From Nautilus pompilius (taxonomy: Eukaryota > Mollusca > Cephalopoda > Nautilida > Nautilidae): a DNA stretch of 64,000 nucleotides. Positions 10,441 through 60,709 of this stretch are shown in pieces (position 1 is the first letter of the stretch; each line of letters starts with the position of its first letter). Made by a program: the position numbers and the translations under genes. The notes under the pieces were generated by a model, which was given only the letters and a program-made list of their open reading frames with translations, had not been told where the DNA came from and did not search any database. The stretch is taken from contig JACATO010002457.1 of assembly GCA_018389105.1 (NCBI GenBank), forward strand, positions 1-64,000. The letters run 5' to 3'.

Positions 10441-11453
10441 TTATTAATCAAATTCAGTTCCATTACAATCAAAACACTTCTACCAACAAGTTACAAGTGC
10501 ATTTATACCATCTTGAAAAAAAAATCTGGATTTCTGGAATCAATAAAGTGTTGGTAGGCAGTTTCAATCGCTGCTTGGTTGGAGAAGGATTTGATACAGA
10601 GGAATCTGTCGAGCTGTTTGAAAAGGTGGGAGAAAGGTCTGGTGAATGGGCTGGTTGAGGGAGAACTTCGTACCCTAACCTGTTCAATTTCTGAAGAGTC
10701 AGTTTTGCAACATGAGGACGAGCATTGTCGTGGAGCAGGATTGGGCCTCTTTGATTCACTGATGCCAGCTGTCGTCGGGAGAGTTTCTGATAAACAACAT
10801 TTAATTCATGACAGTACCTTTCAGATGTGATGGTTTCGCCAGGTTGCAAGAAGTTACTGTATAGTGGATGACACCAGTTACAGTCCACCAGACTGTGACT
10901 ATGACCTTTGGGTGGAGGCTGGATTTTGGAATGTGGTTAGGCGCCATGTCTCTGTTGAGCCACTATGCTGATCGTTTATGATTGTCGTAAAGGATCCATT
11001 TTTTATTATACGTAATGATTCAGTCAAGGAATGGGTTGCTTTTGTTTCTTATGACAAGTGAAGAGCAGATCTCAAATTGATGATTTTGTTGTTGTGCATT
11101 CAACTCGTGAGGTACCCACTTGTCAAGCTTTTTCACCTGGCCAATTGCATCAAGATGCCGGGAAACAGTTGCAGTGTTTGCGTCAAGCTCTCCAGCAATT
11201 TATCACACTGTTTTTCTTGGATCGGCTTCAACTGAGGCTTTCAGACGGTGGTCGTCACAGCTGGAAGGACGTCCGCTACGTTCCTTATGATCGAGGCACA
11301 CATCTCCTGATCGAAACTTTGCAAACCATCGTTGTACTGTGCACTCATTTGCTGTGTCCTCGCCCCCTGCCTGCTTAATGTTACGAGTTGCCTCGCTCGC
11401 TCTGTGGCCTGGTTTGAACTCATGAAGCAAAATGGCACGAAAAATTGTTCCAT
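10441..11453 (-). pseudogene. Mariner-type transposase, decayed copy
   Basis: This is a remnant of a Tc1/mariner-superfamily DNA transposon of the mariner type (DD34D). From the start near 11453 to the end near 10444 it spans about 337 codons, close to the usual 345. Visible conserved pieces, in order, are HEFKPGHRASEATRNI, the WFAKFRSGD and ERSGRPS helix-turn-helix region, VKKLDKWVPHEL, LLHDNARPHV, HSPDLSPT and a C-terminal KCFDCNG. It is dead. There is a frameshift near the N-terminus, stops at 11020-11022 and 10963-10965, and a frameshift near 10630 after SPT. A further in-frame TAG lies just before KCFDCNG. The first catalytic Asp codon reads Asn (11005-11007), the second Asp is kept (10727-10729), and the third is lost at the frameshift. 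I could not define the terminal inverted repeats. Confidence 0.88.
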
Positions 11454-41200: not shown

Positions 41201-42818
41201 GTCAACCTAGGCCAATATTTGCATAGACCAGTGTATTTGCCTTGTGGATTCCATGCAAAAGTGCTGCCTGGCTATAATTGTTGTTTATGGCTGTGTGACC
41301 AAATACTAAAACTGCAGAACATTCACTACCGACCATGTTGCCGTATGTCAGTAGAAAGTAAAGGAAATTGATTTTCTATCAGTTTTAATGACGATGCTGA
41401 GATGGTTTTTTTTAATATATTTCACGTGTCAATTTACATTCTGCTGTAACTGTAATATTTGTTTTCTATAAAATCTTAGTATTATTTACCACCACCAAAT
41501 TATGAATGCTTTAAATATGACTGCTCATTTTTTGGAATATTTTTTGGTGAAATACCCGATTTTGTAAGCACATTGATTTATCTACATCTGGTATACAAGT
41601 CAAAGAGTTGGGATTGTCTCGGGGAAACTGACCGCCGCTGTGTCAGACTGGCTGACATTTCATTCTCGTCATTTGGTGGTGACTTGCTCTGTCATTTCAT
41701 CCTTGCATTTATCCTCTGCATCTTGGGCAGTATTTCTCTCGGACTGTGAAGCTAATTCGCTTTTTTGTTGTTGTTGCACTACTGACCCTGGGTACTGCTC
41801 GGTGAACTTCTAAACATCTGAGGTTTAGTTTACTCTCAAGAGACTTGGCGTGACATATGGTGTTGCCAGATAAAACTCTGCTCTTTACTGGAAAACTATT
41901 TTTAATACTCTCATTTGCTGTATGACTTCCTTTCAATACTTAGGTGCTAATAGAGCATTGACCCTGATAATTTGGTTTGATTGCTGATTATGTTATCAAA
42001 CACACACACACACAAAATAATGAAATGTTCTCTCCTATCAATGTTTTAGAGGCCACTGTATTGTGATTTTCAGGTGATTAAAAATGGAGTGAGCGCCGTG
42101 TATAGCACACTGTTCATGAATTAGTCACTTTGGTCAAGTCATCTCTAAACTGGTGCCACATGAAGAGTCTGTTTGTAGAGCATAAACTAAGTGTCCCCAC
42201 TAAGACTTAGTAGCCTCATCTGTCCGATCTTTTTGTTTGTATTTTGCAGATACTCTGGTGTCTATGCTGTAGTGATCACTGGTTTTGCAAAGGGAATGAA
42301 CTACCGGCCTGGTGATGTCTTCAAGGGCACTGAATATAACCACAGCTGGAATGCAGTCTTGATCCAGGAGAACTGGCACCTGGTGGACTCGCACTGGGCC
42401 ACTAGATATCTGGTGTCTGAAAAGAATCAGCCTGAGAATTTGGTCAGTGATTAGCTCTTTGACTCCCCCCCCCAAGAATATAAGTCTTTTACCGTGTTAT
42501 AAACTCTGGTGTTTTCACAATGGATTTTACCATCGGGAGACTTAACACCTCTGTTCACAGTAAGATAATGCTGCTTTGGGGGTCTGTTAGACTCGAATGC
42601 AAATCTTGACACTCTTTGGGCTGCACTCTCACACAACTCAGCACTCCACTCTTACTCATCAGCCTGTTAAACTTTCTCTGCAAAGGAGGATTTTGTTTGT
42701 ATCTAGCTGGGAAAATTGAAGATAGTTTTCCACTGTGTCATAAATTCTTGAAGACTTAGTCTCTCTCTCTTTTTTTTTTAAATTTTTGTAATAAGGAAAT
42801 CCACAAGTTAAAGAGATT

Positions 42819-42855
<37 letters not shown>

Positions 42856-45800
42856 CATATTGAAAGAAACTTGTGATATTGTTTTTCTTTCTCCAGGTGT
42901 ATGAGTATGACGATTTTTACTTTCTGACGGATCCTGAACAGCTCATTTATAGCCACTGGGCCCAGAAACCAGAGTGGCAGCTGCTCCACAGTTCAATTCG
43001 TCTTGAAGAGTTCCAGGATCTGCCACTGGTCAAGTCCTACTTCTTCAAGTGTGGCATGTACTTCCAGACTCACCAGACAGGTGTGGTTCGTACAAACAAT
43101 GGCCGCCTGTCTTTGGCTGTGGGCTTCATCAAACCGACCAACTTCAGTTACAAGATTGTGTCAGCTGATACTGGCGAGGAGGTATACAAGGGCCACAAGC
43201 TGAAGAGCTATGCGCTGCAGCTAACCGGCAATGGGAAGGTAGCGTTTCTTTTCCGATCTCCCAAGCCTGGTGCCTACTACTTCACCATCTTTGCTCAGCT
43301 GCTCACTGGAGACCTGGGCATCAAGAATGTGTTCACAGCCTCTGCTGAGTACAAGGTCATTGCTGACCGTGCATCCAGTGATGCATCTCCAATGCCTGTC
43401 TGCTCAGACAGCAACTGGGGTCCGAGTGTCCCTGTTGACCAGCTTGGTCTTGTTCCCACCCAGAGAGACCCTGTTGTCATGACTTCCGACGGACGAGTTC
43501 AGCTGAGCTTTATTAAGACCAGGCCAGCAAACATTCTGTGCCGGCTGCGTAGAAGTGGAATGAAACCTGATGAGTTGGAGCGCTGTGTGTCTGAGAGAGA
43601 TGATGGGGATCGGTTGACTGTCACTGCCAACTTACCAACAGAGGGAGAGTATGGCTTAGAGATCTATGGAAATGATCCAAGTAAGGATGGTGACACATAC
43701 ACCCACATCTGTCAATATTTTGTCCATTATGCCCCCACCAATGAGCAGAACCAGGCTTTCTACCAGGACTCCCCTGAGAGACGCTTAATCTATGCCTCCC
43801 CAACAGCTTCAGTGAACACTGGCAGATATGCACCAGGAACAGCTGAGGTAAGAAATTCATCCATTTGTTGTACTCTCTCCTCCAAACCACCTGGAGCCCT
43901 AGGTGTCTCTCCAGAACTTGAATGGGATAGTGTTTAAATATCTTTGAGAATTATCACCTCTGAGTTAAACAATTATATCTATCATTATTGTAAGCATTAT
44001 CTCACCTGGTGTCCAGGGTATGCATTGTTAACTCTAGATTTATTCTTTTCTTTTTTTAAATCGGGCATCTTTCAGCTGAATTCTACTATGGTTGGTGTGT
44101 TTGTCAGCTTTAATGGCAGTGCATTGTGGGAATGTCTTAATTACTGCTGTCTAGAAATGTTTCAGGTGGGATACATCTGAAGTTTTGTTTGATGGCTGTG
44201 CAATGCATTGGATGACTAGGGCATATTTTATAGTGAAATTGGCCCACTCTCTTGCTGTTGCCAAGGAGATAACATTTTAGGAAAGATGGCCAGCCAACCT
44301 ACTTTGTGTTTTGCCGTTTAGGACACTGGGTGAGACTAGATAGTGTCCACCTCCTTGTTGTTAATCTTTTGTACTATGGAGTCATCATCAGGAAAATATG
44401 TAGATATTGTGTGTTAATGGTAATTATAAAAGTTTAGTTAATTAGTTTCAACCCAGGTAATATCTTAAACTGTGTAGGTGCTTTTGTTTTTCGTTATTAT
44501 ACCAGCTTTTTGAAGATTAAGGGATGATAATATAAAAATTAATTTTCTATTATTTGAAAATGAAAATGAGTGTCTTAACAATCACACATCTGCATTCACT
44601 TGATTCTCTATGAACAATTTTCAGCAGGTCGACTTTGGGGTTGCTAGTGCAAAGTAATGCCCTCCAGAGTTCTTGACTCCTTTATTCCTCAGTGGAAATC
44701 TCCATTTTGGGACCAAAAGAAATTCCTCTGGTGGATGTGTAAATTTGTTGCCTGGCTATAACCTTCAGCTAGTTAAACAAAGTCACCTGACTCATGCAGC
44801 CACACATCTGAAGAAAGGAAACTTGACCAGCCAACCATGTCACCAACAGGTTGATCTTTGTTTAAAAAGAAAATGGACTAAATTCATGTCTGACTCACAT
44901 TAAAACAGTTTGCAATCACAGGTAGCAATGTGTCCTAAGACTGACTGACCAGATGGGGCGGGGGAATTAAATTGGCACAGGCAGACACAGCTAATTTGAC
45001 AGTTCACTCAGACTTCTCCTAAAGATATGAGGATTATCAGATTGTTTTTTGGATAAAAAAGTTCAGAATTTTACTTCAAGTTCTAGATTTTAGTAAAAGC
45101 CTTGTGTGTTTCGGAGAGTTGATCATCATATGTTTGGAGGAAACGGGAAGTTTATAATGAGAAAAATATGAAGATCTCCACTGAGTATGGATAGGGAGAT
45201 TGCTTTGGATGAATATTAGAATTATTTAGAGATCATTGAATCTATACTTTAGAGTAAGTTGGAACATAAGACTGCTAAACAGTTTGCTTTGCAGAATTAG
45301 CAAGTGATCAAGGAGTTGTATCAGTGGTTGGTTGGCTGCTTGTTTTGGATGGCTAGAGACAGTCTGATTTAGTAGACAATGACTTAGAGAATAGAAATGG
45401 TCATTAATACAATTTACTGGTACTAAATTCTACAAAAATTCTGTTACGAAAAATATCTTACTAAATCAACCATAATCCTTTACCTTTGAAGTCACTGGAC
45501 ACAGTTATTTATTGATCACTACTGTTTATACTATAAACAGACAGTACATGTTGTAGAAGGATTAAGTTCTGCATCGTCATTTCCTCTGGCTATTTATTTT
45601 GCTTCATTTTCTCACAGAGTAATTTCACTATTGGAGCTGCTAATGTGAATAATGTGCATTACCTAGTCGGTTTGTTTACACAATGTGTGATGGGATCCAC
45701 CAGTGGACCCTTTCCTCCTGGTGGTGATCTTATCATCTAGCTGGTTGGACAGCTTGGAGAAACTTGGAAGAATGCGTCATGGTAACAATGGCTAGTGGAG

Positions 45801-48800
45801 CGAGGTTGTTGAGTAGAGTTTAAGCTATCTGCCAGCTGATCGTGATGATGGTGGCTGATAGCAGAGGACTTCTTTCACCACATGGTTGAGGAGTCTAACT
45901 GCTATGCCACACTGCAGGCAGGCAAAGCTGACAACACACACACATTGGGGATTATTGGAGTAAGATGACTGATGGGATTTGAGAAAATCTGTGGCAATAA
46001 ATGGGATTTTACTCTATATTTCTTTCTATGCTATGAAGTAAAGTTTTCCTTTTAATTAGGATTACTGAACTGCCTGCTAAGTCATTGGTACTATTTGAGT
46101 GACTTTTTAATAATTTTAATCAGGTAGGTGCATTTTAAGCAGCTATCTGGGAAGTTATGGACATTTGTGCATACTAGATATTGCATTTCCTGAATGGAAA
46201 AGAGTTAAAGACAATGATCATAAATTAGGCGGATGTGAATAAGTATGTGACAAACAGATTTACAGACTTGTGTGGCATGGTGGAGAGAACCTATTCTGCC
46301 TGCCCTAGATATCTACTGACTTGGAAGGTTTTCTAACCTCATTTCCTCCTCTTCCTGATCAGAAGGGAAAAAAAGTTACCCCCTGACCATGCATTTTAAT
46401 TATTTCCTACACAATAGCTCTCAGCCAGTCATCTGACTTGGTTTGTTGTGGCGACAGCTGCATCCTGCAGTATCCATTAGTCAGCCTCTCTTATTGCAGA
46501 GTTTTTGGGTAGGGAAAGAGAATGCGTCGTGTCAAGGTACGTTTAATTAATATTATGGCAGGGTTATTGTTTGTTTTTTTTAAATCATTAAGAAGACAAA
46601 AACAGTATGATGATCAAAGTGTCTGGCTAGAAAATAGGTATGTTATTGCTCTTTGTATTTAAGGGCTATCGTTGGACTCTTTAAATAATGTAAATGTGCC
46701 TTTGCCTTTTGTCAGTCACTATAGGTTCCGAAAATCCTGGACATCTGTGGTGTTGGAGCTAACAGGTGTTGAGATAAATGATTGAGCCATTGATTGTATT
46801 CATGTCAAAGTACCTACATCTCCCTCTTGAAATGGCTAGAAACAGTTGTCTAGTTTGCAGAGACATTTAAGATATTAGCTTTTTAAAGTAATTAAGGTAT
46901 TTATGAGTATATGAATAGGGTAAAAAAAATTTTATGTATAGTTAGCTATACTAAAGCTCATAATTATAAATTATCTAAAGTTTTGGATGATTGATAATAC
47001 AGTAGAAAAAAAAAGAAACTTGTTTAGCGAGTGAATGGAATAAATATTTGCTACTGGAAATTGATAATATGATTTGATTTAAAAATTGCATTAATGAGTA
47101 TTTCTCTTCCTGTGGTATAAGCCATGATGGCAGCTGATTTTCTCATAAAGACTGATAGATTTTAAGAATTGATAGAAGTTTTATCGGTTTGTATCAGGAG
47201 ACCATTTATAACTCGTGTTTCTTGCTTCCATTAAAGAAGTTAGTACAATAAAGCTCTGAAAACTAAAATTTTAGTTTAAAAAATGTCACAGTTCCAACTT
47301 TGCAGAAGAATGTTGTCTGACCACTAAACTCTGGGTCAGTTATGGATACCTGTACAAAAAATGAAAGCTGTACCTGAGCTTCGGGTGTTGGAAGGAAATC
47401 TGAAAATGGGTTAAGGTGACTGTTTCTCTACCTTTTTGCACAAATTTGACATTGTACCTAGAAGGCAGGGTATCAGAGAGAGAGAGAGAGAGGGAACTTT
47501 TAAAGTTGTGTGTCTGTTGTCAGGGTTATGGTTGACTGCTGTAGGACTGACTGGCTTTCCTTGAGGGTGGCTAAAGTGCAAGTATCCTCTGTCTCTTGCA
47601 GCTTGTAGATGGTGTAAGCAACCTTCAGCTAAATGACAATGATGAGGGCTTCCCCCCTCCACCAGCTGAAGTGCTTCAGCAGCAATACCTGTACGGCACA
47701 GTTCCCAACACTACACAGCAACCCTTACTGGGAAATATGGCTCACTCCAGGGGTCAAGGCCATATCGAGTACCGACCCGGCACTGGCCAAACGGTCACAA
47801 AACCAGTGCAACAGGCAGCACTCATCAACATTCCCTCAAGCAAGCCCATCCAAGTGGAGAAGCGGCAGGTTGGCTATGTTCCGCCTCCACCCCCGCCAAA
47901 CTTTCAGCTCCAGCCTGTGAAGATGCAGAATGAGTCAGCCCCAGCTCCAGCTCCAGCACCAGCTCAGAAGCCCACTCTGGATACCATGGACAACAAAGTT
48001 TTGCAAAGTGTAGATGACCATGCTATTCAGGTAAGCACATTTACTACATGGGTTAACTTACCTTGGGGGAGGGAGGGAGATAAGCCATTTGATTATATCT
48101 ATTTCTAGGATTAAGCTGTTGTACTATAGAGAGTAGGGGGAACAACTCTGCATGTTGATTACCTTTTGAAATTATATATTTTTTTGGACATTTTTAATTT
48201 CTCTCTGACTCCATCCATATATATATATTTGAGACATATGCCAGGGGCATTCATATGGAATCTGGACCCCTGAGCTGTTAAGCTACCCCAGCATGTGAAA
48301 AATCCAGATCACAATACTTGTCTCATTCATTTGTTTTTGTTTGTTTTTCATTGTATAATTAAAATCTAAAATTAGTTTTATTCGAAGTGATTCTTATCTT
48401 TTGCGTTCTCACATGCCAGGTGTCTAAGAGTACCCACAACAGCTTCAAAGACTTGGTCTGGGATTTGATCTATGCTAAAAACATCACAAATGAACTCGAG
48501 AAAGTCAGGTAACTATTCTTACCCAGTTTCACTCGTTTGTTGTTGCCCTCATACCCTTGCACCCACCTGAGAGAGAGGAGGAATTGGCAATTTCCAATGA
48601 ATAGAGCAACTTCAGTAAATTCTAAGCCTGTCATAAGAATCTAAGATCTTACTAAATTAAATAGTAAATAGTTTTTACATGACACACCAGAAACATGTGT
48701 TTGTGTTTATAAGTAGATTTCAGGGGATTGTATTTACCTACAGTAAAGTGATAACCAGATAAATGAGAGGTTCAGATTATCATATCTATACCTACACTTG

Positions 48801-51390
48801 AGATTTTTATTTTTGTCTTCTAATGATATGATTGAATATGTTACAATTTTGTTTTTTTATTTTTAAGAGTAATCTTTCGGTGGTTGGCCTCTAAGAACCT
48901 GAAGGAAATGAATTTTGAGCATGTGGAGCCTGGAAGTCCTGAGGAGATACTTATGGGACTGAAGACTGGTAGAACTACATATGCCATGGTGTTTGAAACT
49001 CTCTGCAAGTAAGTGTTCTTGTATATCACCCAAATGGACTTTATACAGTGGTTTATGGAATAAGGCACTATCTAATTAGGTAGTTTTTGCTGCTTCAGAC
49101 ATTAGATATCCCAGAGTTCTAAGTTCAAGAATTCTCTTAAGGAAAACTAGGATTGAAATTAGCTTTATTCCATAATTGTCATTGCACAGGTAATCAATCC
49201 TTTCTCGTACGTGACCATTATGTTTTTGGGTTGTTGTGCTCGTTTATCCCTTTGATAGTAACACAAGTTTCAGACATCTTGAAGCATTTGGATCATGTCT
49301 GCCTGCCTTTTGATGCAGTCTAAATTAGTTTGGCTTCCCTGTGCCATCTCATGATATGGCAGTATATCTCAGCCCAATTCTTGTTGCTGGATGTCCGTCC
49401 CCCCTCAATTATTAAACCGTATATTGTTGCCATGTTTTCTACGAGTCACCATCCTTTAGGTTTTTACATGACTGTGACCAAACTGCCAGTTATTAAGTAT
49501 CACAATTAAGCCATAAACATTAACTTTTTTCTTCTTCCTTTAAATGACCAGTCATGTCGAGTATGTAATATGGATAGAAGTGTGTATGCTGTTGAACAGG
49601 CTTGGTTTTTGTTTTGATGAACTTTCCTGACCACCAATGTTTTTTCTCTCTCTCTCTCTCTCTCTCCCAGCTATGCTGGGCTTCACGGTCAGATCCTGAG
49701 TGGTTATGCAAAGGGAGCAGACTACAGACCCGGGCAGAAGTTCGTGCAGGGAACCAACCAGCACTCATGGAATGCAGTCTACATCTATGGCCAGTGGTGT
49801 CTCATTGATTGCCACTGGGCAGCCCGCCGTATCATCGGCAAGCAGTCTACCGCCGAGGAAGACTTTCTCTACCAGCTTGATGAATACTTTTTCCTGACCA
49901 ACCCACACCAGCTGAAGTACACACACTTTCCAGATAATCCAAAATGGCAGTTGCTGGAGCGCCCAATTCGGCTAGAAGAGTTTGAGAACCAACCACACAT
50001 GAAGCCACAGTTCTTCAAGTACGACCTGGAGCTTGTCAGCCACACAACTGCAGTGATTGAGTCTCGAGGCGAGACCACTATACGCCTGGCCTATCCATCC
50101 AAGAAGCGCCCTCTGGCATTTAATTTTAGTATCCAATTTGAAAGTGGAGAAGAGGAGTTCAGGGGAACAAAGCTGAACAGGTATGGCATGCAAGAAAGCT
50201 CCAACAGTATTGCATCGTTCCGCTTGCGTCTTCCCAAAGCTGGCTCCTATGTCCTATACATCTATGCAAAGGAAGACACACCAGAAAACAAGGAGAACCT
50301 GTATGCACAGGTGTGTGAGTACAAGATACTGCAAGAGAGGCTGAGCTGCGAGCCTGCACCATTCCCACCATGCAGCTACCTGTCATGGGGCACTGGCTCT
50401 GCTTTCCAAAAGTACAACCTTTCTACATACCAGCAGAAAGCTACTATCAAAACACAGGCAGGGAAGGCTGAGCTGCAGATCCAGCGGCCACCAAATGTGA
50501 CAAGGCAGTTTATGGCAAAGCTGAAGCACAACTCGATGAGCGACGATGAGCTTGAAGGCTACATCCTGACTCGTACGGTTGGCTCCACAGAGTACTTCAC
50601 AATATCACTGCCTCAGCGTGGAGAGTATGGACTGGAGCTGTATGCCAATGACCCTACATCTGAAGGAATGACTCTCTACCATGTTGGACAATTTTTGATC
50701 GAGTGTAATGAAGATGTTTATGCTATCCAGCTGCCAAAGCTACCAACAGGTTACCTGGGACCCCAGCCGAAGTTTTCTGAGAGTGGCATGGAGACATTGA
50801 GTCACAATGACAAAGTCATTTACCTGGATTGTAACCATGTTGAGATCCAGCTGACGACTCAACAGCCAATGAGAGTTACTGCAAACCTGATCAGTGTGAA
50901 GGATGAAACAGAGTACCAAGATCTGGTGTTCACACAGTCACAGGGCTCTGTGGTCAGCTTCATTGTCTGCATGCCTGAAACTGGTTTCTACAAGCTGCAG
51001 CTATATGCTGTTGCCTGCAATGATAAGAGCCAGCAGCTCCCTGGTATCTACAACTACCTGATCCATGTGAAGAAGGTCACAAGCACTGTGTGCCCCTTCC
51101 CCAAGCAATATGCCCAGTGGAAGGAAGGTTGCTACATGTGGGAGCCCATGGCAATTTCCCCCAACATGGACCGATCCAAACCCTTGCATTTCAGAGTCTC
51201 TATTCCAGCTGCATCCTCAGTGGCTGCTGTGGCAGATGAAGATTGGACTCTGCTGGAGCAGACTAACCGGGGCTGGGAAGGTGATGTTTCTGTGGGCAAA
51301 CTGTTGGGCACTGGTGCAAAGCTGACCCTCAATGCCAGCATGGGCCATGACAAGAACAGCTACGCCACCCTGCTTGAGTACACACTCTAA
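32117..51390 (+). CDS. Hillarin / kyphoscoliosis-peptidase-like protein, two modules (9 coding exons)
   Basis: Spliced coding sequence: 32117-32239, 37761-37849, 39501-39647, 42250-42442, 42897-43847, 47602-48030, 48420-48508, 48868-49008, 49671-51390 (3882 nt, 1293 residues). All joints are GT-AG and in phase. Module A has a transglutaminase-like core at about residues 35-172 and beta-rich KY/hillarin units at about 185-490. A Pro-rich linker covers 502-640. Module B has a core at about 640-773, beta-rich units to about 1075 and an extra C-terminal unit at about 1078-1293. Core His (151, 752) and Asp (166, 767) are present in NHSWNAV/QHSWNAV and LVDSHWA/LIDCHWA. The position expected for the catalytic Cys is Lys108 and Arg709. 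No signal peptide or membrane segment is seen, so it is presumably cytoplasmic. KY in vertebrates is a muscle Z-disc protein that binds filamin C, and leech hillarin is an axon-hillock protein of similar length as I recall. A scaffold role is inferred. Confidence 0.93.
32736..32761. repeat. TA dinucleotide microsatellite
   Basis: About 13 TA units, 500 bp into intron 1. A second, shorter AT run lies near 33440-33460. Confidence 0.9.
36560..37100 (-). pseudogene. Tc1-like transposase, decayed fragment in intron 1
   Basis: Minus-strand translation gives a helix-turn-helix-like stretch (TAAKISKELQWSGKAISLHV, then WLHNSQK). After a stop come LQYAKEQIKYSQNFW and, further on, a degenerate SDGIAWSRGS segment and VENGG. 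These follow the order seen in Tc1-type transposases: second HTH, then ARLxYAKEH..FW, the SDE catalytic segment and TVKHGGG. Frames are broken several times and no catalytic Asp/Glu set survives. It lies opposite in strand to the host gene. Confidence 0.7.
37160..37340 (+). repeat. tRNA-derived SINE in intron 1
   Basis: The head reads GGTGGTACAGTGGTTAGACT (A box) and TTGAGGGC, with a B-box-like GAGTTTGAATTCC about 35 bp on. The body follows with TTTCCTCTGTCATCTAAAAT and TGAAGAGTTCTGGTAGGG. Head and body align with the minus-strand copy at 5485-5745. This is a clear dispersed repeat with Pol III promoter remnants. Confidence 0.68.
37761..37849 (+). CDS. Hillarin-like gene, coding exon 2 (residues 42-71)
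   Basis: 89 bp between a CTCATTGCAG acceptor and a GTACGT donor. It encodes VSQRNHDTFGDLIHDLIV and ends LRSELDKA plus a split Arg codon. The 89-bp exon 7 encodes the corresponding VSKSTHNSFKDLVWDLIY stretch with identical length and phases. Confidence 0.93.
37850..39500 (+). other. Hillarin-like intron 2
   Basis: 1.65 kb of AT-rich sequence. An ORF at 39011-39199 has no recognised relatives. Nothing else of note. Confidence 0.8.
39501..39647 (+). CDS. Hillarin-like gene, coding exon 3 (residues 71-120)
   Basis: 147 bp opened by TTATCCTCAG. It encodes the start of the transglutaminase-like core, with the family signature RAIFRW and then KNKKGTYARIFETMC, ending in a split Gly codon before GTACGT. 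Canonical family members have a catalytic Cys three residues before the Tyr of the YA-x-[IL]-F segment; here that residue is Lys108. Confidence 0.95.
39925..40060 (-). repeat. Truncated SINE fragment in intron 3
   Basis: The minus strand reads ATGGTTTCTTC, then later GCAATGCAGCAGTTAACTCT and GGCTCACA. These match the middle and tail of the SINE copy at 5485-5745 (GTAATGC, GCAGTTAACTC, GGCTCACAGCC). The tRNA-like head is missing. Confidence 0.45.
40840..41390 (+). pseudogene. Tc1-type transposase, decayed fragment in intron 3
   Basis: Across shifting plus-strand frames the order of motifs is that of a Tc1-family transposase C-terminal half: FGSDGWTYL, RFDEAFHLKCTKP, a VHYG-like remnant of the VMVWG segment, KGTG with CIQG, NQFVYLNV, AQSPDFNSKENPL (family form AQSPDLNPIENLW) and a terminal CCRMSVESKGN. 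Stops and frameshifts separate the pieces. The Asn-Pro-Ile of the third catalytic region has become Asn-Ser-Lys. It is inactive and in the same orientation as the host gene. Confidence 0.78.
42250..42442 (+). CDS. Hillarin-like gene, coding exon 4 (residues 120-184)
   Basis: Starts after TATTTTGCAG and ends ENL before GTCAGT. It encodes YSGVYAVVITGFAKGMNYRP, then NHSWNAV with His151 and LVDSHWA with Asp166, the second and third positions of the transglutaminase-like triad. In module B the equivalent sequence is fused with what follows into the large exon 9, so the intron after this exon has no counterpart there. Confidence 0.95.
42443..42896 (+). other. Hillarin-like intron 4
   Basis: 454 bp with a TG microsatellite (42823-42852) ending about 44 bp before the acceptor of exon 5. 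Length variation there could affect splicing; this is inference only. Confidence 0.85.
42823..42852. repeat. TG dinucleotide microsatellite near a splice acceptor
   Basis: About 15 TG units on the sense strand immediately upstream of the polypyrimidine tract of exon 5. Confidence 0.9.
42897..43847 (+). CDS. Hillarin-like gene, coding exon 5 (residues 185-501)
   Basis: 951 bp, phase 0 at both ends. It encodes the region after the core of module A. FLTDPEQLIYSHW and IRLEEFQDLP are followed by two beta-rich units: one around GGVVRTNN-type strands to PGAYYFTIFAQ, and one from VQLSFIKTRPAN to GEYGLEIYGNDPS. Both patterns recur in exon 9 (FLTNPHQLKYTHF, IRLEEFENQP, GEYGLELYANDPT), showing duplication of the entire module. 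If the following intron were retained, the frame would run 30 more codons to a stop at 43937. Confidence 0.95.
43848..47601 (+). other. Hillarin-like intron 5 (between modules)
   Basis: 3.75 kb of AT-rich sequence without a recognised exon or transposon. A GA repeat lies near 47477-47492. It separates the two duplicated modules. Confidence 0.8.
47602..48030 (+). CDS. Hillarin-like gene, coding exon 6 (proline-rich linker, residues 502-644)
   Basis: 429 bp, phase 0 on both sides, so it could be skipped without a frameshift. It encodes a low-complexity linker: GFPPPPAEV near 517-524, six consecutive Pro at 595-600 (VGYVPPPPPPNF), and an Ala-Pro alternation at about 613-621. It ends DDHAIQ, the start of module B. 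Poly-Pro runs of this kind are typical ligands of SH3, WW, EVH1 or profilin; which partner applies here cannot be told. Confidence 0.92.
48420..48508 (+). CDS. Hillarin-like gene, coding exon 7 (residues 645-674)
   Basis: 89 bp between ACATGCCAG and GTAACT. It encodes VSKSTHNSFKDLVWDLIY and ends NELEKV plus a split Arg codon. It is the exact structural counterpart of exon 2. Confidence 0.94.
48868..49008 (+). CDS. Hillarin-like gene, coding exon 8 (residues 674-721)
   Basis: 141 bp. It encodes VIFRWLASKN and KTGRTTYAMVFETLC, ending in a split Asn codon before GTAAGT. It is the counterpart of exon 3 (147 bp, same phases). The catalytic Cys position is Arg709. Confidence 0.94.
49009..49670 (+). 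other. Hillarin-like intron 8
   Basis: 662 bp. Its 3' end is a TC microsatellite (49645-49667) that forms the polypyrimidine tract directly in front of the CCCAG acceptor. Introns 6 (48031-48419) and 7 (48509-48867) are also short and show nothing else of note. Confidence 0.85.
49671..51390 (+). CDS. Hillarin-like gene, terminal coding exon 9 (residues 721-1293)
   Basis: 1720 bp, ending with TAA at 51388-51390. It encodes YAGLHGQILSGYAKGADYRP, then QHSWNAV with His752 and LIDCHWA with Asp767. The beta-rich units paralogous to exon 5 follow. A third C-terminal unit from about residue 1078 contains GYLGPQPKF, IYNYLIH, PFPKQYAQWKEGCYMWEP, DEDWTLLEQT and the ending LLEYTL. Only this last unit is shared with the free-standing gene at 55692-56375. 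Having the whole of module B after the core in one exon makes the last unit easy to copy without introns. Confidence 0.96.
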
Positions 51391-53100
51391 CTCTTCGATT
51401 TTCCTTCACACTCGTGCTTAAGTAGACCTCATATGCTAGAATCTCTGTCCATCGCTGCAGTGCGAAAGAACTCTACCACAGCTTTCCTATCATTTATTAC
51501 ATCCCCTTTTTGTTTTCCCTTTTGCTGTCATTCTTCACCCAAAGGAGTTCCTGGTGTAACACTGATGGAGCAGCAGCACCACCCACCTGCAGGTTGAAAG
51601 AAAATCAACTTACTGAAACTTTGAAACTTGACTTTTTGTGGCAGTTTCCACACCTGACTTATGCAAGACGCTGCACCCATGAAGAGTGAGTTTCAGCTAT
51701 TTGTCTCTGGTCGAATATTTTCTCTTTCTTACCCACAAAACATTTGTATAGACCATGTCTTTCAGGATACTTAGCCTGATGTTCAAATGGCTTCTGCATT
51801 GACAGCTTTTCTTTCTTTCTTTTAAAAACTATAAAAAAAACTGTGCTCTTCTAATGTACCAGGTTTTATCTTATAACTATATCACCTGCTTTGGTTTGAA
51901 TTTCTCAAATGTGGGTCTGCATGTGAAGCCCTAATAATTTGAAATTTTTGACCAAAAGCACCTTCCATAGGAGAAGAGTTTGATATTTCAGGATGTGTGT
52001 TCGAACAGTACTTCTGTTTTGATGTATACACTTTAAGAGAATGCTGGCTGGTTCTATTACTCTGCAGGCATCTTAAATTCTAGAACTGAAGGGATCTAAT
52101 AAAATCTTATCTTTAAGTTCATGGACTCGGAAAAGAACCAAACAGGTCGATGTTTATAATTATGTAGAGGGACTTTAGTTATGCCAGTGAGAACATTCTG
52201 TGGGCGGTTACGTTGTCCTGTCCTAAGGCCTATCAAGGCAGAACATTGTCAGTACCTGACAACTGAATTTAAGCAGGTGAAGAAGCTGCTTCAGTTTTGT
52301 TGTAAGTGCCTTTCAAAAAGAGAAAAAAGTTCTATATTGTATGTAACTTTTAGTCTGCTTTCAAATTGGTAAATAACCACGTTAAGAATCGTGGTGCATT
52401 TCTCCGTCCTTCCACTGCTGGATGAAACTCTTAGTTATTTACGATAGTCTTAGTTTTCCTTTTGTTCTCTGGACCACTGAGATTATGTCCACCTGTAGGA
52501 AACCAGCAGCACAAGATCCGAAGATGTATGTAATATTAAACTTAAAACAAATAGTAGAAAGAAAAAATGTTATTGTTTTTAAATTTTATTTTGTTTTTCA
52601 AGTTAAAAAAATATATATATATAAAAAGCAACCCTGGGTGGTGTTATGCTGCTATCATTTAAATAGTTATTGTTCCCCTGAAAGGAGGAACTCGATCATC
52701 TATCTAGCCCTGACTACGTGTTCACATCTAAGACACGCATTTTGCTCTCTTGTTTACAGCTTTAATTAGAATGTTTTTGTTGTTAAAGAATATCTTACTC
52801 ATTGCTGTTTGATAACTAACACGATAAATTGCTGCTTTATTGGTTGATTGGGAATTTGAAGGACAGACTGATGCTTGTAGCATTTCGTGCCTTGTTCTCT
52901 CAAGGTCTAAGTTTCTTCACCTGCCGTGTCAACTCCAGTTGATGAGACAAATGCCATACATAAAAGGTGGAAATACCGACTCATTGTGCTTTGCTGCTTT
53001 TCTTTTTTCTTAAATGCAGATGAAAAAATGAAAAGTGACTCATTTTTCAACTGTTGTAGATTATGAACAAATTAAATGCTCTGCTTATTATACCTGTTTT
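51391..53100 (+). other. Probable 3'UTR of the hillarin-like gene
   Basis: AT-rich non-coding sequence after the TAA. Candidate polyadenylation signals are AATAAA at 52098-52103 and ATTAAA at 53071-53076. The latter is followed within 30 bp by a T/G-rich TGTTTTGTCTCTTGTC segment and is the better candidate for the distal end. The exact cleavage site is not determined. Confidence 0.5.
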
Positions 53101-53297: not shown

Positions 53298-55189
53298 TCT
53301 CCAACAAAGTGTTTCTGATGAAGACTAGGAACAGCAGTTGCTTGGTGTTTTGCCTTTCCGACTCCCATGTGTGGACATTGAATCCAAGAAGAAAAACAGG
53401 TTTTAATATTTTAAGTTGATTTTTACATCGTCAGCTGAGCTTTCATGATCAGCAGAAAGTAGATTTGTAGCACAGATGGATGAAGCCAAGCCCCTAGCAT
53501 TAGTTTAGGGGCTACAAGATGCTGGGGGAAGAAAAATGGCTGTCAGTTTGATTTTTAAACTTAAATTTTCGCCATCGCTGGAAATCTATTGCTTCCATCT
53601 TCACTACTGTTACTGGAATGATTCCTAGCTATCAAATCACTTAACCCTGTAACAGCAGTAATGCAGTTGGAAATCTGAGTTATTTTAATAGAATGTTGTT
53701 TGAAAGCAGCTTCCAAAATGAACGTTTTATTTAGTTTTGCAGAAAAGTATTTGAAGTAGATATGTGATCAAGTAGAAATAGTCTTTTAAACGAAGACAGT
53801 GATATGAATTCTGTTCAGTACTAAATTTATAAGAAATTTTAAATGCTTATAAATAAAAACAAGTTGATAGATTTCAACTGACCTTTTAAGAGTGGAATAT
53901 GTTTTAGGAAGTCTTGTTCTGACTAGTTCATAAGAAGAAAAGATGGCTGATTCCAAGAAATTAGTTGTAAGGAGAAATTATGGGCTGCTTTGACTATTGT
54001 GTTAGTCAGTAAACAAACAAAGCTAAAATGATTATTAAATAACTAGAAATGGTATTACAAGTTTAAGCATTTGACATTTTGTCAGCAAAAAAAACAAAAA
54101 AATGCAAGGGATACTTACTGCCTGGTTACGGATGTTTCAGATTTAGAATAACATTTGTCAATAATTTTATGAATATCTCTTGAAACGCTCCATCTTTTTT
54201 TTTTCTTTTTTGCAGCAAGAATTACTGATATACATCCATTTGTGGAATTAATTTCTGAGCCATAAAGTAGCTGGGAATTCAAAATTCTAGTGTGGTTTCC
54301 CCTAGCAGCTGCTTTAAGCGAGTTACTAGCAAAGTTTGAACTTGTTGCAAATTTGTAGGGAGATTTTTGAAAAATGAGTTGTATAACTCAGAAGAAATTC
54401 CTTATGGAAGGGGGGAACACCTGTATGTGGCCCCTTTTTAAAGTTTTCTTAGGGGTGGTTTTGCTGCCGATTTAGTACAAAACACGAACAGCAGGCACAG
54501 GGTTACTTCCCTGGATTGCTTGATTTCCTCCTGCTGCCTAGATGGGTTTCTTCCTACATTAAAAAAATAGAGTAGAGACTTTCATTGTGGAAGGAAACTG
54601 ACCACCTTAGCTGGTTATACCTTTACCATGACACCTTGTAATACAAAATCTTCTGATGGTTTTAAATAAAAAAAAAATTAAAGTTGTCTCCCTTGAGTGC
54701 CCTAATTAGGCTCCTATTAGATGGCTTCCACCAACATCAGATTAAAGGTGTTATGGACAGAACAGTAGTAGATTATCTCATCAGTGGACAGTAAGCTATT
54801 TAAAGAGATGGATCTTTAGATCGTGTGACGATAACAGGGATGTCGAGATGGCAGCAGGTTCTCTGAAGGTCTTTGAAAGATTCACCCTAATTCCTCGACC
54901 CCCGCTGCTTCTGACTTAACACCAACAAAATCTGCTCTTTTCCATTAAAATTTCTTGGGGAAAAAAAGGCTTAAATTGTCCACATGGAGACCGGTTAGCA
55001 GCTTGATTTTCCTTAAAGAGAGAGTTCAGTTGGAGGGGGAACCACTCAGTAACACAACCGAGCAGATCTAAAGTACAAACTAAGCGCCATTTTCCTTTAT
55101 TTAGGGTTCTCTCGGGCTACACAGGCGAGATCATTCTTATGTCTGAGGTGGGAGACATTAACTTCCTCGGTGATGCGGTTAACGGGCGG
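53298..55189. other. Intergenic stretch between the hillarin-like gene and its small paralogue
   Basis: AT-rich, with no ORF of note and no recognised repeat family. Base composition becomes more GC- and CpG-rich from about 55.1 kb. Confidence 0.6.
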
Positions 55190-55197
55190 TGACGTCA
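55190..55197. promoter_or_regulatory. Perfect cAMP-response element (CRE) palindrome
   Basis: TGACGTCA, the full consensus for CREB/ATF factors, lies 495 bp upstream of the ATG of the small paralogue at the edge of its CpG-rich start region. A TATA-like TATTTAAAA occurs at 55289-55297. The match is exact; use in vivo is inferred. Confidence 0.45.
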
Positions 55198-55691
55198 TCT
55201 GTCTTAAAGCTGTCAGGTCTCTGTATTGGGGGGGGGGTTGTCTGCCCTTCCTCCTCTTATCCATTAGAAAATCAGATCTCAGAAACTGTATTTAAAAAGA
55301 TGGTGTTATTTATCAGACGAGCCGCTGGGGTGGGTGACGGATAGCAGCTCGTCACGCTGCGTGCAGACCGGATTCCGCAGCTGAAGATGCTGAGGTGTAG
55401 GTGATCAGAGGTTATTCCTTGTTGGGTCAGGAGGAGGATAATCGCGGCTGCCGGAGCAATGCGAGAAGCCGAGACTGGGGTGGAGTCGAAGATTCCCATT
55501 GGGCCCCCGAAAGTCTACACATCCGGCGCGAGTTCTGTCGTCCAAACACTGGAGGGGCTGTGAATCAACAGCGAGGAATGTCTCGGGTCGACAGTGATAA
55601 AGGACCGAGGAAGATTCCGTGTTTGTTTTCTGTCGAGTAGAGAGCCCACCCACCCACACACCAGGCGACGGTCTTTCCGCTCTGCGCAGCC

Positions 55692-56375
55692 ATGGCTCAG
55701 CAGCGATCTCCACTGGACTACCCTAAAATCAGCGACGGGTACCTGGGCCCGCAGCCGAAGTTCGACGTGTACGGCCTGACGGCCCTCACCCACCCGGAAG
55801 CGGTCATTGAACTGGACTCGAACCGCGTGCAAATCGAGATCGGCTACAACCAACCCACCCGCTTCACCAACAAGCTGCTGCTGTGCGGGTCCCAGGGGAA
55901 GGAGCTGCCGGAGAGCGTGATGATCGGGTGCGGGGACGACAAATTATCCTACCTCCTCGTCCTACCCCAGATCGGCTACTACAAGTTTCAGTTGTACGCT
56001 CTGCCGTCCACCGAGGCGGGCCCGAAGATGATCGGGGTGTACAACTACCTCATCCACTGCAGCCAAATGACCGAGGAGTTTCTCCCGTTTCCCAAGCAGT
56101 ACCCCGGGTGGAAAAATGGCTGTTACATGTGGGAACCCCTCGGTCTGGCGAAGAACACGCAGTCCGCGGCCGTGCCCTTTAAAGTCTTCATCCCCAAGGC
56201 GGTACAGGTGATGCTGAAGGTGGGCGACGACTGGACCCCCTTGCAACAGACCTCCCCGGATACCTGGATGGAGACTGTCGACTTCTCCAAGGGCTACCCG
56301 AAGGGAACCAAAGCCCAGCTGAACGTGAAGTACGGGGGACATAACTTCAACACCCTGCTGGAGTACACGCTGTGA
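55692..56375 (+). CDS. Stand-alone hillarin C-terminal-unit protein, single exon, 227 aa
   Basis: The ATG sits in a near-ideal context (GCAGCCATGG), and an in-frame TAG at 55638-55640 rules out an N-terminal extension in the same exon. The protein is one beta-rich unit related to residues 1078-1293 of the neighbouring hillarin-like protein. Shared blocks are GYLGPQPKF, YNYLIH, PFPKQY-x-x-WK-x-GCYMWEP, DDWTPLQQT and the identical ending LLEYTL. By eye about 40 percent of positions agree, so the duplication is old, yet the frame is intact. It has no transglutaminase-like core, signal peptide or membrane segment. Codons are far richer in G/C and CpG than in the neighbour. It was probably copied from the last exon of the hillarin-like gene or an ancestor. 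Its function is unknown; competition for or sharing of hillarin's partners is an inference. Confidence 0.9.
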   Translation: MAQQRSPLDYPKISDGYLGPQPKFDVYGLTALTHPEAVIELDSNRVQIEIGYNQPTRFTNKLLLCGSQGKELPESVMIGCGDDKLSYLLVLPQIGYYKFQLYALPSTEAGPKMIGVYNYLIHCSQMTEEFLPFPKQYPGWKNGCYMWEPLGLAKNTQSAAVPFKVFIPKAVQVMLKVGDDWTPLQQTSPDTWMETVDFSKGYPKGTKAQLNVKYGGHNFNTLLEYTL

Positions 56376-56509
56376 GGAGGATCCGAACCACGGTCTGTAT
56401 GGCTCAATAATAACTGTTATCTTGTTTGTGTGGCCGGCCGCACCCCTCCCTGCCCCATCACCTGTCCGATCACCTGTCCGTCTATTCGTACTTGTCCAGA
56501 AAATGTAAC

Positions 56510-56515
56510 AATAAA
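56510..56515 (+). terminator. Polyadenylation signal of the small paralogue
   Basis: AATAAA 135 bp after the TGA, followed by a T-rich downstream segment. It indicates a short 3'UTR and an independently transcribed gene. Confidence 0.75.
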
Positions 56516-57498
56516 CTTATTCTGCTGATTAACTTCGCATATTTATCTCTCTACATCCCTTTTCTCTCCCGCGCGCCCATTGACAGACCATCATTAAGTC
56601 TGGATACTGCGCCGAAGTAATTTAAGGCTAGGTTATCTCCCCTGCTGTTGTGCCTTCTCCATATCCGAACTGAAATTCCCCGACAGAGGGCGCGTCGTAT
56701 CTCGGAGTTTCTCATTTAGGGAGCTGTTTTCTTTTAAAAAAAAAAAAAACACAGACATTCTCAGCAGATGTTAAAGATCAAAGGGCGCAGTCGGGGTACG
56801 AAAGCGACCCCCTCCTCTCCCCTCCCCAAACTATTCCTCAGCCGCAGCCTCTTCCCCCGGAAACAGAAATATCTACACAGGAACTCTGCAATCAGAATCA
56901 TGGCGGAAACAACTGTAACGCTGCCAAAATCCAGAGGGATGGATCTTTTGTTTATATTAGACGATCTGGGGTTGTTATTTCTCTATTTTTGGTTTTTAGG
57001 GGGTTGTTTGGTGAAGCCAGGATCCGCGCCTCTGTATCTTTGTGATGTGTATAGGAGCTGGGGGAAACTAGAAGAGGTTTAGGACAATAGGTAAAGAAAG
57101 ATAAGTACTTGGCTGAAACCGAAGACTTCGGTTAGTTTATAAACTGACCAAACTTTAGTTAGTCGGGGCTTAATATTAAATATATATATACATAACTTTT
57201 GTTTCTTCCAGTAATTGAATTGTAGAATAAACTGCCAGATGTGGGGCTTAATAGCGGTGCTATGAGGCTGCTCACATCAATGGATTGTCTCCCCTAGGGA
57301 AGTCGTCATTTAGCTGCTAAACTAAAGGTAAACTAAGGTCAAGTTTTTACTGGTAAGTAAATAAATGTTCTGATTTTCTATCATAACCGTTTTTTTAAAA
57401 TCTTCAAGATGTTACTTCATCTTTTTTGTGAATATTTCGATGCAAATAGGTAATGTATTCAACGCACGTGACATTATTGAGAAGGCAATCTCTCTCAT
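56516..57498. other. Intergenic stretch without a supported gene
   Basis: It contains an open frame from 56768 to 57082 with an internal ATCATGGCGG start-like site at about 56899. The translation matches no family I know and no splice donor is evident. A CTCF-like core (CCGACAGAGGGCG, 56680-56692) is present at motif level only. Confidence 0.4.
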
Positions 57499-57578
57499 TA
57501 CATAGTGCGCACTATGTACAGCATCCGAACTGCTGCAGTACATAGTGCGCACTATGTACAGCATCCGAACTGCTGCAG
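57499..57578. repeat. Exact tandem pair of 40-bp units built on a 20-bp palindrome
   Basis: Two identical 40-bp units abut (57499-57538, 57539-57578). Each begins with the perfect palindrome TACATAGTGCGCACTATGTA and continues with CAGCA-TCCGAAC-TGCTG, a 5-bp stem with a 7-nt loop, then CAG. No degeneration is seen between copies. Confidence 0.95.
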
Positions 57579-58347
57579 AATCGGTGTGAAGGAGCGAAAC
57601 CGACTGACATTTTAAAAAATATTCTTCGTTTTTTCCTTTCTTTCTGATAAGAACAGGTAAACTGTTTTAGCATCTGGTTAAAACCGTGAAGGTCATAACG
57701 ATAATGTTACAGTCATTGTCACAAATATAAATATGAGAGAGATTTTAAAAGAATTAGAGCAGGAGGCTGAAGCTGCAGAAGTCTGGTTTCACCCCCAGAA
57801 AACATCGTGGCGCAGAAATCGCCAATATGCCGTATATCAGAAGACTGTAGGGGGGCAGGGATGACACGAGGAACCAGCCTGGCTGATGAGCCGAGCATCA
57901 CTGCAGAAGATGAAGATGATGATGAGTAGATGAACAAAATTTTGTATGAATTGTTGCTACCGGGTCTCCCTTACAAACAGAGTGAAATAACACATTTTAC
58001 TAAATATTATGGATATTTATAAAATAAAAGAAAAATTATATCTGGCATTTTACAGACGTTCTGTGACCGGAGAGTATCTGTGTGTGTGTAACACAGACTT
58101 TGTCCACGATGCACCTTTCTAATGTATCTTTATCGTGTAAAAATCGAGAGAGACTTAAATAAGGTCTACTTATTTAATGTTTCTTCGCAAAAAGGGAAGA
58201 CAGATTTGCCGATTTAATTAAGTTTAAACTATTTATATTTTGCCCTGACACCGGATCCTATCCCTGTCGTTACATTTGTGAGAGTACTGAATTACTCTTG
58301 GCCGACACCACGGGTCCTTCGAAAGTCCCTAATGAGAGCTCTTAAAT
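57579..58347. other. Intergenic stretch, nothing recognised
   Basis: AT-rich, with short ORFs only. Confidence 0.5.
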
Positions 58348-58455
58348 TCTTTTTTTTTTTTTAGATGTTGGAAAGAAACCGGGCCAGGAAGGGGGGTACG
58401 TGAAATCGGGCTGGCCCAGACCGGGACTCGAACTCTGGCGAGACTAACCACTTTA
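58348..58455 (-). repeat. SINE-related fragment with A-rich end
   Basis: On the minus strand a GTGGTTAGTC segment is followed closely by a well-kept B-box-like GAGTTCGAGTCCCGG. A body ending TTTCTTTCCAACATCTAAAA then runs into a run of A (the T run at 58349-58362). The CATCTAAAA ending resembles the body of the copies at 5485-5745 and 37160-37340. The tRNA-like head is shortened between the boxes. Confidence 0.45.
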
Positions 58456-59880
58456 ATTTGTGAAATATATTATACAAAACCCGAGTCTGAGGATTGTAAG
58501 CAAAATACTTTAAATGGCTGATCGACGACGACAGCGACACCACGGCGAACCTCGGGAAAATAGACAGACCGACCCAGCATAGCGACGGTCTTCTTCAGAG
58601 ATAAGCTGAGAGAGGGCACGTCGACTTAGGGCTATAATTGTACCAGGGATGGGACAACTCGGCTGAGTCATGTGGTGGCGAATAGTTCTCGGCCCGTACA
58701 CAGTGCGCGGACGGCAGCCGCGGAGGAGTTTTCAAATACATGAGGCGAGAGAATCCTTGGAGGTCGTAACGAGTTCGGGGTTCTCCAAGAATTACCACCT
58801 AACGTCCCACAGATATTCTTCGCGATTTGCGGGTATTAAATCTAGCTAGACCCGGTGTACGGCGCTTCTCCGAGAGCCAGTGTCTGGGAGTTCTTGGAGC
58901 GTTCTCAGACCTTTACAGAACTCCACGTCACTGATTCTTGGTTTAGAGGGGCAGAGCAAATCCCTCTCTCTTTAAATGGCTTAGAAGTCGGTTGGTAAAT
59001 GCAAGATTTGAGAGCCACCAACGCCTCTCTTGAAGGCAAGCCTTCACGCAAGTCCATCTTTACTGGTGGGTTTGTTCTAACCCCCTGTCATAGCCGGACT
59101 GCTATTTTCAGTAACGTCGCTCGTCCACTAGAACAAACCATTACCAGGCCACAGCTGCTACCTTTCACAACTTGCCTCGAGCACCTTCTCCAGCTGTAAT
59201 GGCTGCTTTAGTAACTATTTTACCAACTTTCGGAGAGAAGGTTCAATTCCCTTTTAGGGGTCCCGGTGTAGCGATTTTCGCAGTCTTCCCCATCTCCACC
59301 CACCACCAGTCGGTTTTCTATCAGTGAACTAAACCCCTCCATCCAGCTTCTAATGTAGTTGTCAGAGATGGCACAGTTTCTAAGGGAGAGACCCTTGCGA
59401 TTGTTCTATCCTATCCAGTTACACATCAGACCTTAGTATTGCTGGTACAAATCTATTTTCACTTGTCTGTACCCGTTAACACTTTCCCTCGCTACCTGGC
59501 GGCCCGGGGTTAGCAATGGGAGCAACTGGTCGTCTTGTTTGCCAAGTAGTTCGCGCAAGGGCCCGAGATTTAAATATATCCCCGTTCGCTTCCTCGACAC
59601 GCGATATCCCCAGCGGGTTGCGCGCGCGTCCTATACACTTTTATGGTCTTTTGGCTGGCTGAGCCCAGATTAGATGGGGGAGAGAAACCCGATATTTCTT
59701 CTGCTCCGCTATTTTCGGCCTGGAAGGAGCTCGTCTCTCGCCAGAACATTGGCTCGCCTCCCACCTGAAGTACGGGCAGACTGTCAGCTTATCCGCCCCT
59801 GACGACGAATCCTCGCCGGGACCCACCAGGGGGCTTCTGCTGCGGAGACTGGCCCTGGAAAGCAACATGGCCGACTGGAC
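58456..59880. promoter_or_regulatory. CpG-rich stretch, possible CpG-island-like promoter region
   Basis: Markedly richer in G, C and CpG than the surrounding AT-rich DNA (for example GCGCGCGCG near 59620). It holds several short open frames with no recognised similarity. Near the right edge AACATGGCCGAC (about 59865) resembles the YY1-type motif often found at start sites, but its frame stops after six codons. A B-box-like GGTTCAATTCC lies near 59240. No convincing exon was found. An unannotated first exon or a non-coding transcript is possible. Confidence 0.35.
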
Positions 59881-60709
59881 TCCTTAATACTGCGAAATTT
59901 TGGCGATTTTAAATTAACGATACATTTGTAGAGGAGTCGAGCAGATTTTAAAAAAAAAGGGGGGGGCTTCTAGTGAATATAATATTTAATTGCTTCACAT
60001 GATATACCTACCAAAATTACAAAAAATCCAGACCGCTGTGCAGGGGCGATAACTCACTAAGATTCAGATGAAGCAGTCACTAATATAAAATATTTATTTA
60101 TTTTTTTTAAGGATGGACGGTAGTTGCTTTCAATTTGTTCATACTACAAATATAATTCAGACTTTAAATGCTTAATATATTTGTCAACTTTGAAGTTTTA
60201 AAAAAATAGGCCTAGACTGAAATATTGGGGAACTCGCGACGACTTATCAATGGGTGCAGCAGACTGCTTACCTGGCTCTCACATTAAGAGAAATTCAAAA
60301 TTATTTGAAAACTTTGTGTAGAAGCAGAAAGTTCTAGAAGGGAAGAAAACATTTTATTTTAAAAACCTATTCAAAAGGAAGAAGGGATTATGCAATACAA
60401 TAACCAAGATACACGACCCTTGATACAAACAAGTTTCTAAATTTAAATTCCATTGAACTTTTCAGAATCTTTTTTTAAAGTCTTCTCCCCATCCCCACAC
60501 CACAGAGAACTGACCTTGTGACTGGTAATTTTAATTACTTTGCAGGTATAGTTAATGCAGCCCAAACTGGTCATTTATTTAGAGAAGAAAATAGCAAAAA
60601 CTGTCCATTTTTTTGTTCCTGATAAATCAGTAACAAAAAGAAAAACAAACTTTAATTATAAAAAAATAAGTAAATAGATAAAAGTTGAGATTTTACAAGG
60701 AAAAACTAT
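59881..60709. other. Intergenic stretch downstream of the PDZ gene
   Basis: AT-rich, no supported gene. It contains further minus-strand AATAAA matches (60353-60358, 60574-60579) that could serve as distal polyadenylation sites of the PDZ gene. Confidence 0.5.

Follow-up and report, generated by a model that had tools for sequence, protein, structure and literature searches.

KY and hillarin proteins serve muscle maintenance and cytokinesis, and partial tandem duplicates or truncated paralogues that act as competitors of their parent are a known general kind of gene. In the available passages of one report, leech hillarin and D-Hillarin are described as acting with septins (PMC3081291), and the passages of a 2018 paper place KY in a Z-disc network with filamin C and state that KY had not been found to act enzymatically on any endogenous substrate (PMC6078408). 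As far as these passages go, the reported septin and filamin partnerships concern the full-length proteins. A free-standing hillarin/KY tail protein is not described in the portions of the hillarin and kyphoscoliosis peptidase literature that were searched, most subscription journals lying outside the search.

The locus considered here lies in a 64-kb stretch of Nautilus pompilius DNA (the window, 64,000 nucleotides at its full length), in which a short gene, hereafter the small gene, follows a hillarin gene on the same strand. With moderate confidence, we consider that the small gene is functional and independent, that its coding part has no intron, that it arose as an old partial tandem duplicate of the last exon of hillarin, and that its product may act as an adaptor or competitor.

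Architecture of the small gene and its protein

The following features, given in window positions, bear on the argument.

37761-37849, 39501-39647, 42250-42442, 42897-43847, 47602-48030, 48420-48508 and 48868-49008, plus strand: upstream hillarin exons (model)
49671..51390, plus strand: hillarin last exon, with the end of the second transglutaminase-like (TG-like) core, three Ig-like_KY domains, the C-terminal domain and the stop (Pfam, exon model)
50725..51387, plus strand: homologous C-terminal unit in the hillarin last exon, the likely source of the small gene (BLASTP, alignment)
55000..60000, no strand: CpG-rich block, o/e 0.73-1.10 across five 1-kb bins (55001-60000), within which lie the small gene and a putative promoter
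55190..55197, plus strand: TGACGTCA (CRE palindrome), candidate promoter element and sole copy in the 64-kb window
55638..55640, plus strand: in-frame stop 5' of the small gene ATG (sequence, frame list)
55675..55689, plus strand: acceptor-like ttccgctctgcgcag, ending 2 bases 5' of the ATG, a possible 5'UTR splice site (matrix score; in frame for phase-1 donors only)
55692..56375, plus strand: free-standing gene for the KY C-terminal unit, 227 codons plus stop (frame, homology, genome search)
55752..56093, plus strand: Ig-like_KY (PF23265), small protein residues 21-134 (Pfam 68 bits; AF2 model of residues 1-135)
56085..56372, plus strand: KY C-terminal domain without a Pfam family, common to hillarin and two C296 paralogues (domain searches)
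56510..56515, plus strand: AATAAA, candidate polyA signal (motif scan)

Re-reading the sequence recovered the uninterrupted frame of 227 codons with the coordinates and end motifs given in a preliminary description of this DNA, the protein beginning with MAQQRSPLDYPK and ending in LLEYTL. The in-frame upstream stop claimed there is present as a TAG, after which the frame is open from 55641, and the good start context is borne out by an ATG that sits in GCAGCCATGG, a Kozak-type setting. The claimed polyA signal is likewise present 3' of the gene, as one of 59 AATAAA hexamers in the window. The term single exon holds for the coding part and less surely for the 5'UTR, which may be spliced, since the AG 2 bases before the ATG ranks in the top 1.1% of window AGs on a matrix built from only eight hillarin acceptors; a spliced 5'UTR is thus possible. 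The 692 bases upstream of the small gene matched only themselves in a search of the animal's own genome. The protein is probably cytoplasmic, because MAQQRSPLDYPK has no hydrophobic stretch by eye, and no signal peptide is visible by the same inspection.

The N-terminal half of the small protein belongs to the Ig-like_KY family (cut-off 27 bits). An AF2 model of this part, made with an alignment of five relatives drawn from window sequences only, is a beta sandwich with a pLDDT of 85.5 and a pTM of 0.80, and 13 of its Foldseek matches, all to beta-sandwich proteins of different kinds, have E values of 0.001 or better. Folding of the whole protein from a two-sequence alignment gave a pLDDT of 48, and the structure matches obtained with that model were discarded. 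Following the Ig domain is a tail domain that, with its LLEYTL-type end and 46% identity to the corresponding domain of hillarin, places the protein in the hillarin/KY family. The last 92 aa matched no Pfam family (best 0.23), a result obtained with the small protein's copy of the tail alone, and the whole protein had no NCBIfam match. Tail domains of about 92-98 aa occur in four KY-family proteins of this genome (51094-51387, 56085-56372, L025:7098-7379 and L026:8083-8364).

No TG-like (W180/KY) core was found in the small protein, by Pfam or otherwise. Pfam alone would not decide the matter, because the TG-like part of hillarin's last exon also scores below the cut-off (13.5 bits, cut-off 23). 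A tblastn search with the hillarin last exon (E 1) picked up a core relative at 42251-42436, and the interval from 51.4 to 55.7 kb gave no match.

Relation to hillarin and to other KY-family genes

The similarity to the end of the neighbouring hillarin gene noted in the preliminary description was recovered by BLASTP (161 bits, 2e-50, 223 aa aligned at 40% identity). The partner segment is the final 221 aa of hillarin, the stop of which is 4.3 kb upstream of the small gene; weaker matches link the small protein to the other Ig-like repeats of hillarin. With the exception of its first 7 of 227 aa, the small protein aligns with the Ig-plus-tail end of hillarin, and the two have in common the motifs GYLGPQPKF, YNYLIH, PFPKQY, GCYMWEP and LLEYTL. 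Homology begins at the linker before hillarin's last Ig domain, so that the last Ig and the tail were copied together as a whole two-domain unit, and the homology runs to the same stop motif, which upholds the earlier view that the copy includes the natural C-terminus.

The hillarin model begins at exon 37761, the gene's first exons lying outside it, and comprises 1252 codons without a stop over exons 37761-51390; the residue numbers 1078-1293 of the preliminary description are accordingly provisional. The core in the last exon is called TG-like on three grounds: its place among the domains, its resemblance to the first core, and its part in the match to the ciliary protein FAP246 described below. 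Neither of the two cores (NKKGTYA and TGRTTYA) has a Cys among the ten residues that precede the YA motif, the place of the catalytic Cys in active transglutaminase-like relatives; hillarin here may therefore be a pseudoenzyme, that is, a non-enzymatic scaffold.

In the animal's own assembly (728 Mb, 2558 contigs; match counts are lower bounds), the small protein has four matches, namely itself, hillarin and two C296 genes, and is thus single copy. Two contigs of this assembly bear 14 matches to PF14830, a molluscan haemocyanin domain, in keeping with a molluscan source. The same assembly holds 18 PF23265 matches, 17 of them over the cut-off: five in hillarin, one in the small gene, four at C296, three each at C621 and C129, one at C57 and one, below the cut-off, at C924. 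With a one-protein query and E values up to 10, the tail domain was found four times: in hillarin, in the small gene and in each of the two C296 genes. At C296, at C129 and in the C57 copy, TG-like sequence lies, by eye, in or beside the frame, and C621 has the core end only. The small gene is the only carrier lacking TG-like sequence among the KY-family places examined, C924 standing outside this comparison and the counts being lower bounds.

Two candidates for a second free-standing copy were set aside. The short 212-aa frame at C57:35814-36158 has TG-like sequence just upstream in another frame, and by eye looks like a copy of the C129 gene; the C924 match contains stops and falls below the cut-off. 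By eye, the C57 locus (L023, C57:31001-41000) repeats part of the KY gene at C129 (L027, C129:1942001-1952000) almost identically but with the frame broken, apparently through a recent duplication. Searches of prokaryote genomes, viral contigs and phages gave no confirmed relative of the small protein; these collections are non-animal and so have no bearing on its conservation in animals.

Constraint, base composition and independence

Long open frames are not rare in DNA as GC-rich as this, and therefore the evidence for a gene lies in homology and constraint. Of 1000 random 2-kb sequences built with the dinucleotides of the CpG-rich island, 8 contained a stop-free frame of at least 244 codons, all six frames being considered; with the dinucleotides of the small gene itself, the figure was 43 of 1000. 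Across 218 codons aligned with the hillarin unit, identity at codon positions 1, 2 and 3 is 0.56, 0.61 and 0.34, four-fold sites of shared codon boxes match in 15 of 40 cases, and NG86 gives a dN of 0.60 with dS saturated, so that the small gene displays the amino-acid constraint beside saturated synonymous sites that is expected of a coding gene. When the hillarin unit was allowed to drift neutrally in simulation to the same nucleotide identity, it acquired a mean of 8.5 stops, none of 2000 runs remained stop-free, and amino-acid identity reached at most 0.28 as against the 0.41 observed. The codon-position pattern and the simulation support a gene retained by selection.

A maximum-likelihood tree of the four units groups the small protein with the hillarin unit at 100/100 support, and the descent of the gene from hillarin's last exon, as the preliminary description had it, is supported by this tree, by the reading phases and by the CpG compartments. 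The parent stretch is itself intronless, and because the small gene is adjacent and on the same strand, tandem duplication is favoured over a retrogene. Since the C296 genes too have the tail after TG-like cores, it is most likely that the core was lost by the small gene, rather than the tail gained by hillarin.

In the tree, the branch of the small protein is longer than that of hillarin (1.18 vs 0.47), which could reflect partial relaxation or a new function. Counts of unique changes bearing on unequal rates are small (19:10 and 11:20), and the two outgroups disagree. A longer branch would also suit a young pseudogene, a duplicate held under constraint for a long time whose expression was lost so recently that the frame is still intact. 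We regard this as improbable, because the frame has neither stop nor frameshift, because a CpG-rich block, a CRE-like site and a polyA signal are all in place, and because family-invariant sites are kept as well as in hillarin. Hillarin and both C296 paralogues agree at 30 sites; 24 of these are retained in the small protein, compared with 63 of 181 other sites (Fisher 4e-6). The reverse comparison, over 30 sites at which the small protein agrees with both C296 paralogues, again finds 24 retained, this time in hillarin.

The small gene and hillarin differ sharply in CpG content. In the 55 1-kb bins of positions 1-55 kb, CpG o/e ranges from 0.09 to 0.59 with a mean of 0.28, and it ranges from 0.14 to 0.57 in the 14 bins that cover the sequence after 60 kb; within coding sequence, an o/e of 0.83 in the small gene contrasts with 0.12 for the corresponding stretch of hillarin. 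The contrast is strong but not absolute, for at 500-base resolution eight other stretches of the window (550-1050 bases) exceed 0.6, among them 41301-41850, between hillarin exons, and 52301-52850, between hillarin and the small gene. Judged from this composition, the two genes would belong to distinct methylation compartments, a pattern that fits two transcription units. The small gene explains only about the first 1.5 kb of the 5-kb CpG-rich block. By eye, no gene is evident in the frame list for 57-60 kb, and a tandem pair of acatagtgcgcactatgtacagcatccgaactgctgcag lies in the block near 57.5 kb. Elsewhere in the window, an open frame on the minus strand at 10472-10936 looks by eye like a mariner-type transposase.

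Independence from hillarin is well supported by the sequence. One may nonetheless imagine that the small gene is an alternative terminal exon that takes the place of hillarin's last one and yields an isoform with another tail, as its location on the same strand downstream of hillarin would allow. The acceptor-like AG before the ATG suits such an arrangement, and weak phase-0/2 acceptors occur inside the frame, the best of them scoring 3.2 against 9.3-14.5 for hillarin's own acceptors, on which the matrix was trained. However, only a phase-1 donor would bring the strong acceptor into frame, and the phases of the donors in the hillarin model run 2, 2, 0, 0, 0, 2 and 2, an argument that applies to these seven donors and leaves aside unmodelled exons and cryptic donors in the last exon. 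The shift in CpG content between the two genes also speaks against a terminal exon, and the Kozak-type ATG with its in-frame upstream stop fits an independent start. Taken together, these observations make a terminal exon of hillarin very unlikely.

Codon usage offers a weak hint of expression for a separate small gene. Correlation of RSCU with that of one actin is 0.68 for the small gene. Within hillarin, the last exon reaches 0.53, a second exon 0.55 and the homologous unit 0.40, and 23 GPCR matches have a mean of 0.37 (at most 0.60), all against the same single actin. These controls are the 23 stop-free sequences among 24 loci taken from the 150 matches listed. GC3 was considered as a sign of high expression and dropped; it is 0.85 in the small gene, and the GPCR controls, with a mean of 0.74, four of 23 at 0.85 or more and a CpG o/e of 1.03, indicate that high GC3 is ordinary for long single-frame genes here.

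Proposed role and comparison with known systems

We propose that a piece of hillarin's last exon was duplicated in tandem long ago to give a 227-aa protein made of one KY-type Ig and the KY C-terminal domain, and that transcription starts from a promoter of its own in the CpG-rich block, at 55.0-55.7 kb. The product would occupy partners of the hillarin C-terminus, presumably cytoskeletal proteins of septin or filamin type. If hillarin is a non-enzymatic scaffold, a protein that consists only of its tail would be expected to compete for, or to bridge, the partners of that tail, and we infer an adaptor or competitor role from this. Control of the two genes may be separate, the body of hillarin being CpG-poor, as in methylated-type genes, and the small gene having a CpG content near normal.

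A different possibility is that the small gene is functional outside the hillarin pathway, in a secreted, immune or ciliary role for instance. Its CpG content is unlike that of hillarin, and in oyster, according to the available passages of one study, the highest CpG o/e values belong to innate-immune categories, including adhesion and signalling (PMC2996979); the longer branch of the small protein points the same way. A ciliary connection is suggested by FAP246 of the Chlamydomonas central pair, in which the order of TG-like core, Ig and tail may recur. A profile of hillarin and its relatives, running from TG-like core to tail, matched FAP246 at 3.3e-11, the only clearly significant solved structure, the next being gasdermins at 0.03 or more. 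What is strong in this match comes from the TG-like core end; the tail, though correctly placed in the order, contributes just 3.7 bits, and has E 0.33 when taken alone. The FAP246 chain is also Foldseek rank 5 for the Ig model (E 3.5e-4). Against a role outside the hillarin pathway stand the conserved motifs, which are those of hillarin, the lack of a signal peptide by eye, and the weakness of the FAP246 tail match, together with the failure of sequence searches with the small protein alone or the Ig profile to find FAP246. The passages available on FAP246, a protein of central pair C1b related to LRGUK, mention no KY-like region. We consider a role of this kind unlikely.

An independent partial duplicate within the hillarin pathway would have a wider consequence. 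More tentatively than for the small gene itself, we suggest that the hillarin/KY tail is a self-sufficient module that was freed and retained as a gene of its own, a separately regulated molluscan hillarin of dominant-negative or adaptor kind; this is possible, though we lean against it at present. The tail probably works on its own. If a conserved gene for the tail alone exists, the tail would carry function without the transglutaminase-like part, and the small protein offers a handle for finding its partners.

Several described systems resemble the small gene in part. Like competing partial duplicates, it is a fragment gene that lies beside its parent and encodes one domain unit; competition is a feature of those systems and, for the small gene, a proposal. 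FAP246 (PDB 7n6g chain 6E, 7sqc) resembles the KY family in its profile match, in the weak but correctly ordered tail and in the Foldseek match of the Ig model, and differs in being a large protein with other domains, in a tail match that is not significant alone, and in having been missed by the Ig profile. The KY (kyphoscoliosis peptidase) family, with the C296, C621 and C129 paralogues, has Ig-like_KY in common with the small protein, and the C296 members also have the tail domain; unlike it, these paralogues carry TG-like sequence by eye (the core end only in C621), and they are 22-27% identical to it where aligned. The closest relative is hillarin itself (leech hillarin and Drosophila D-Hillarin, W180/KY family), whose full-length copy in the window has the same last Ig-like_KY and C-terminal domain, the same end motif and the 40% identity given above, and from which the small gene differs in having no TG-like core, no other Ig domains and no linker, in its one coding exon and in its CpG-rich surroundings.
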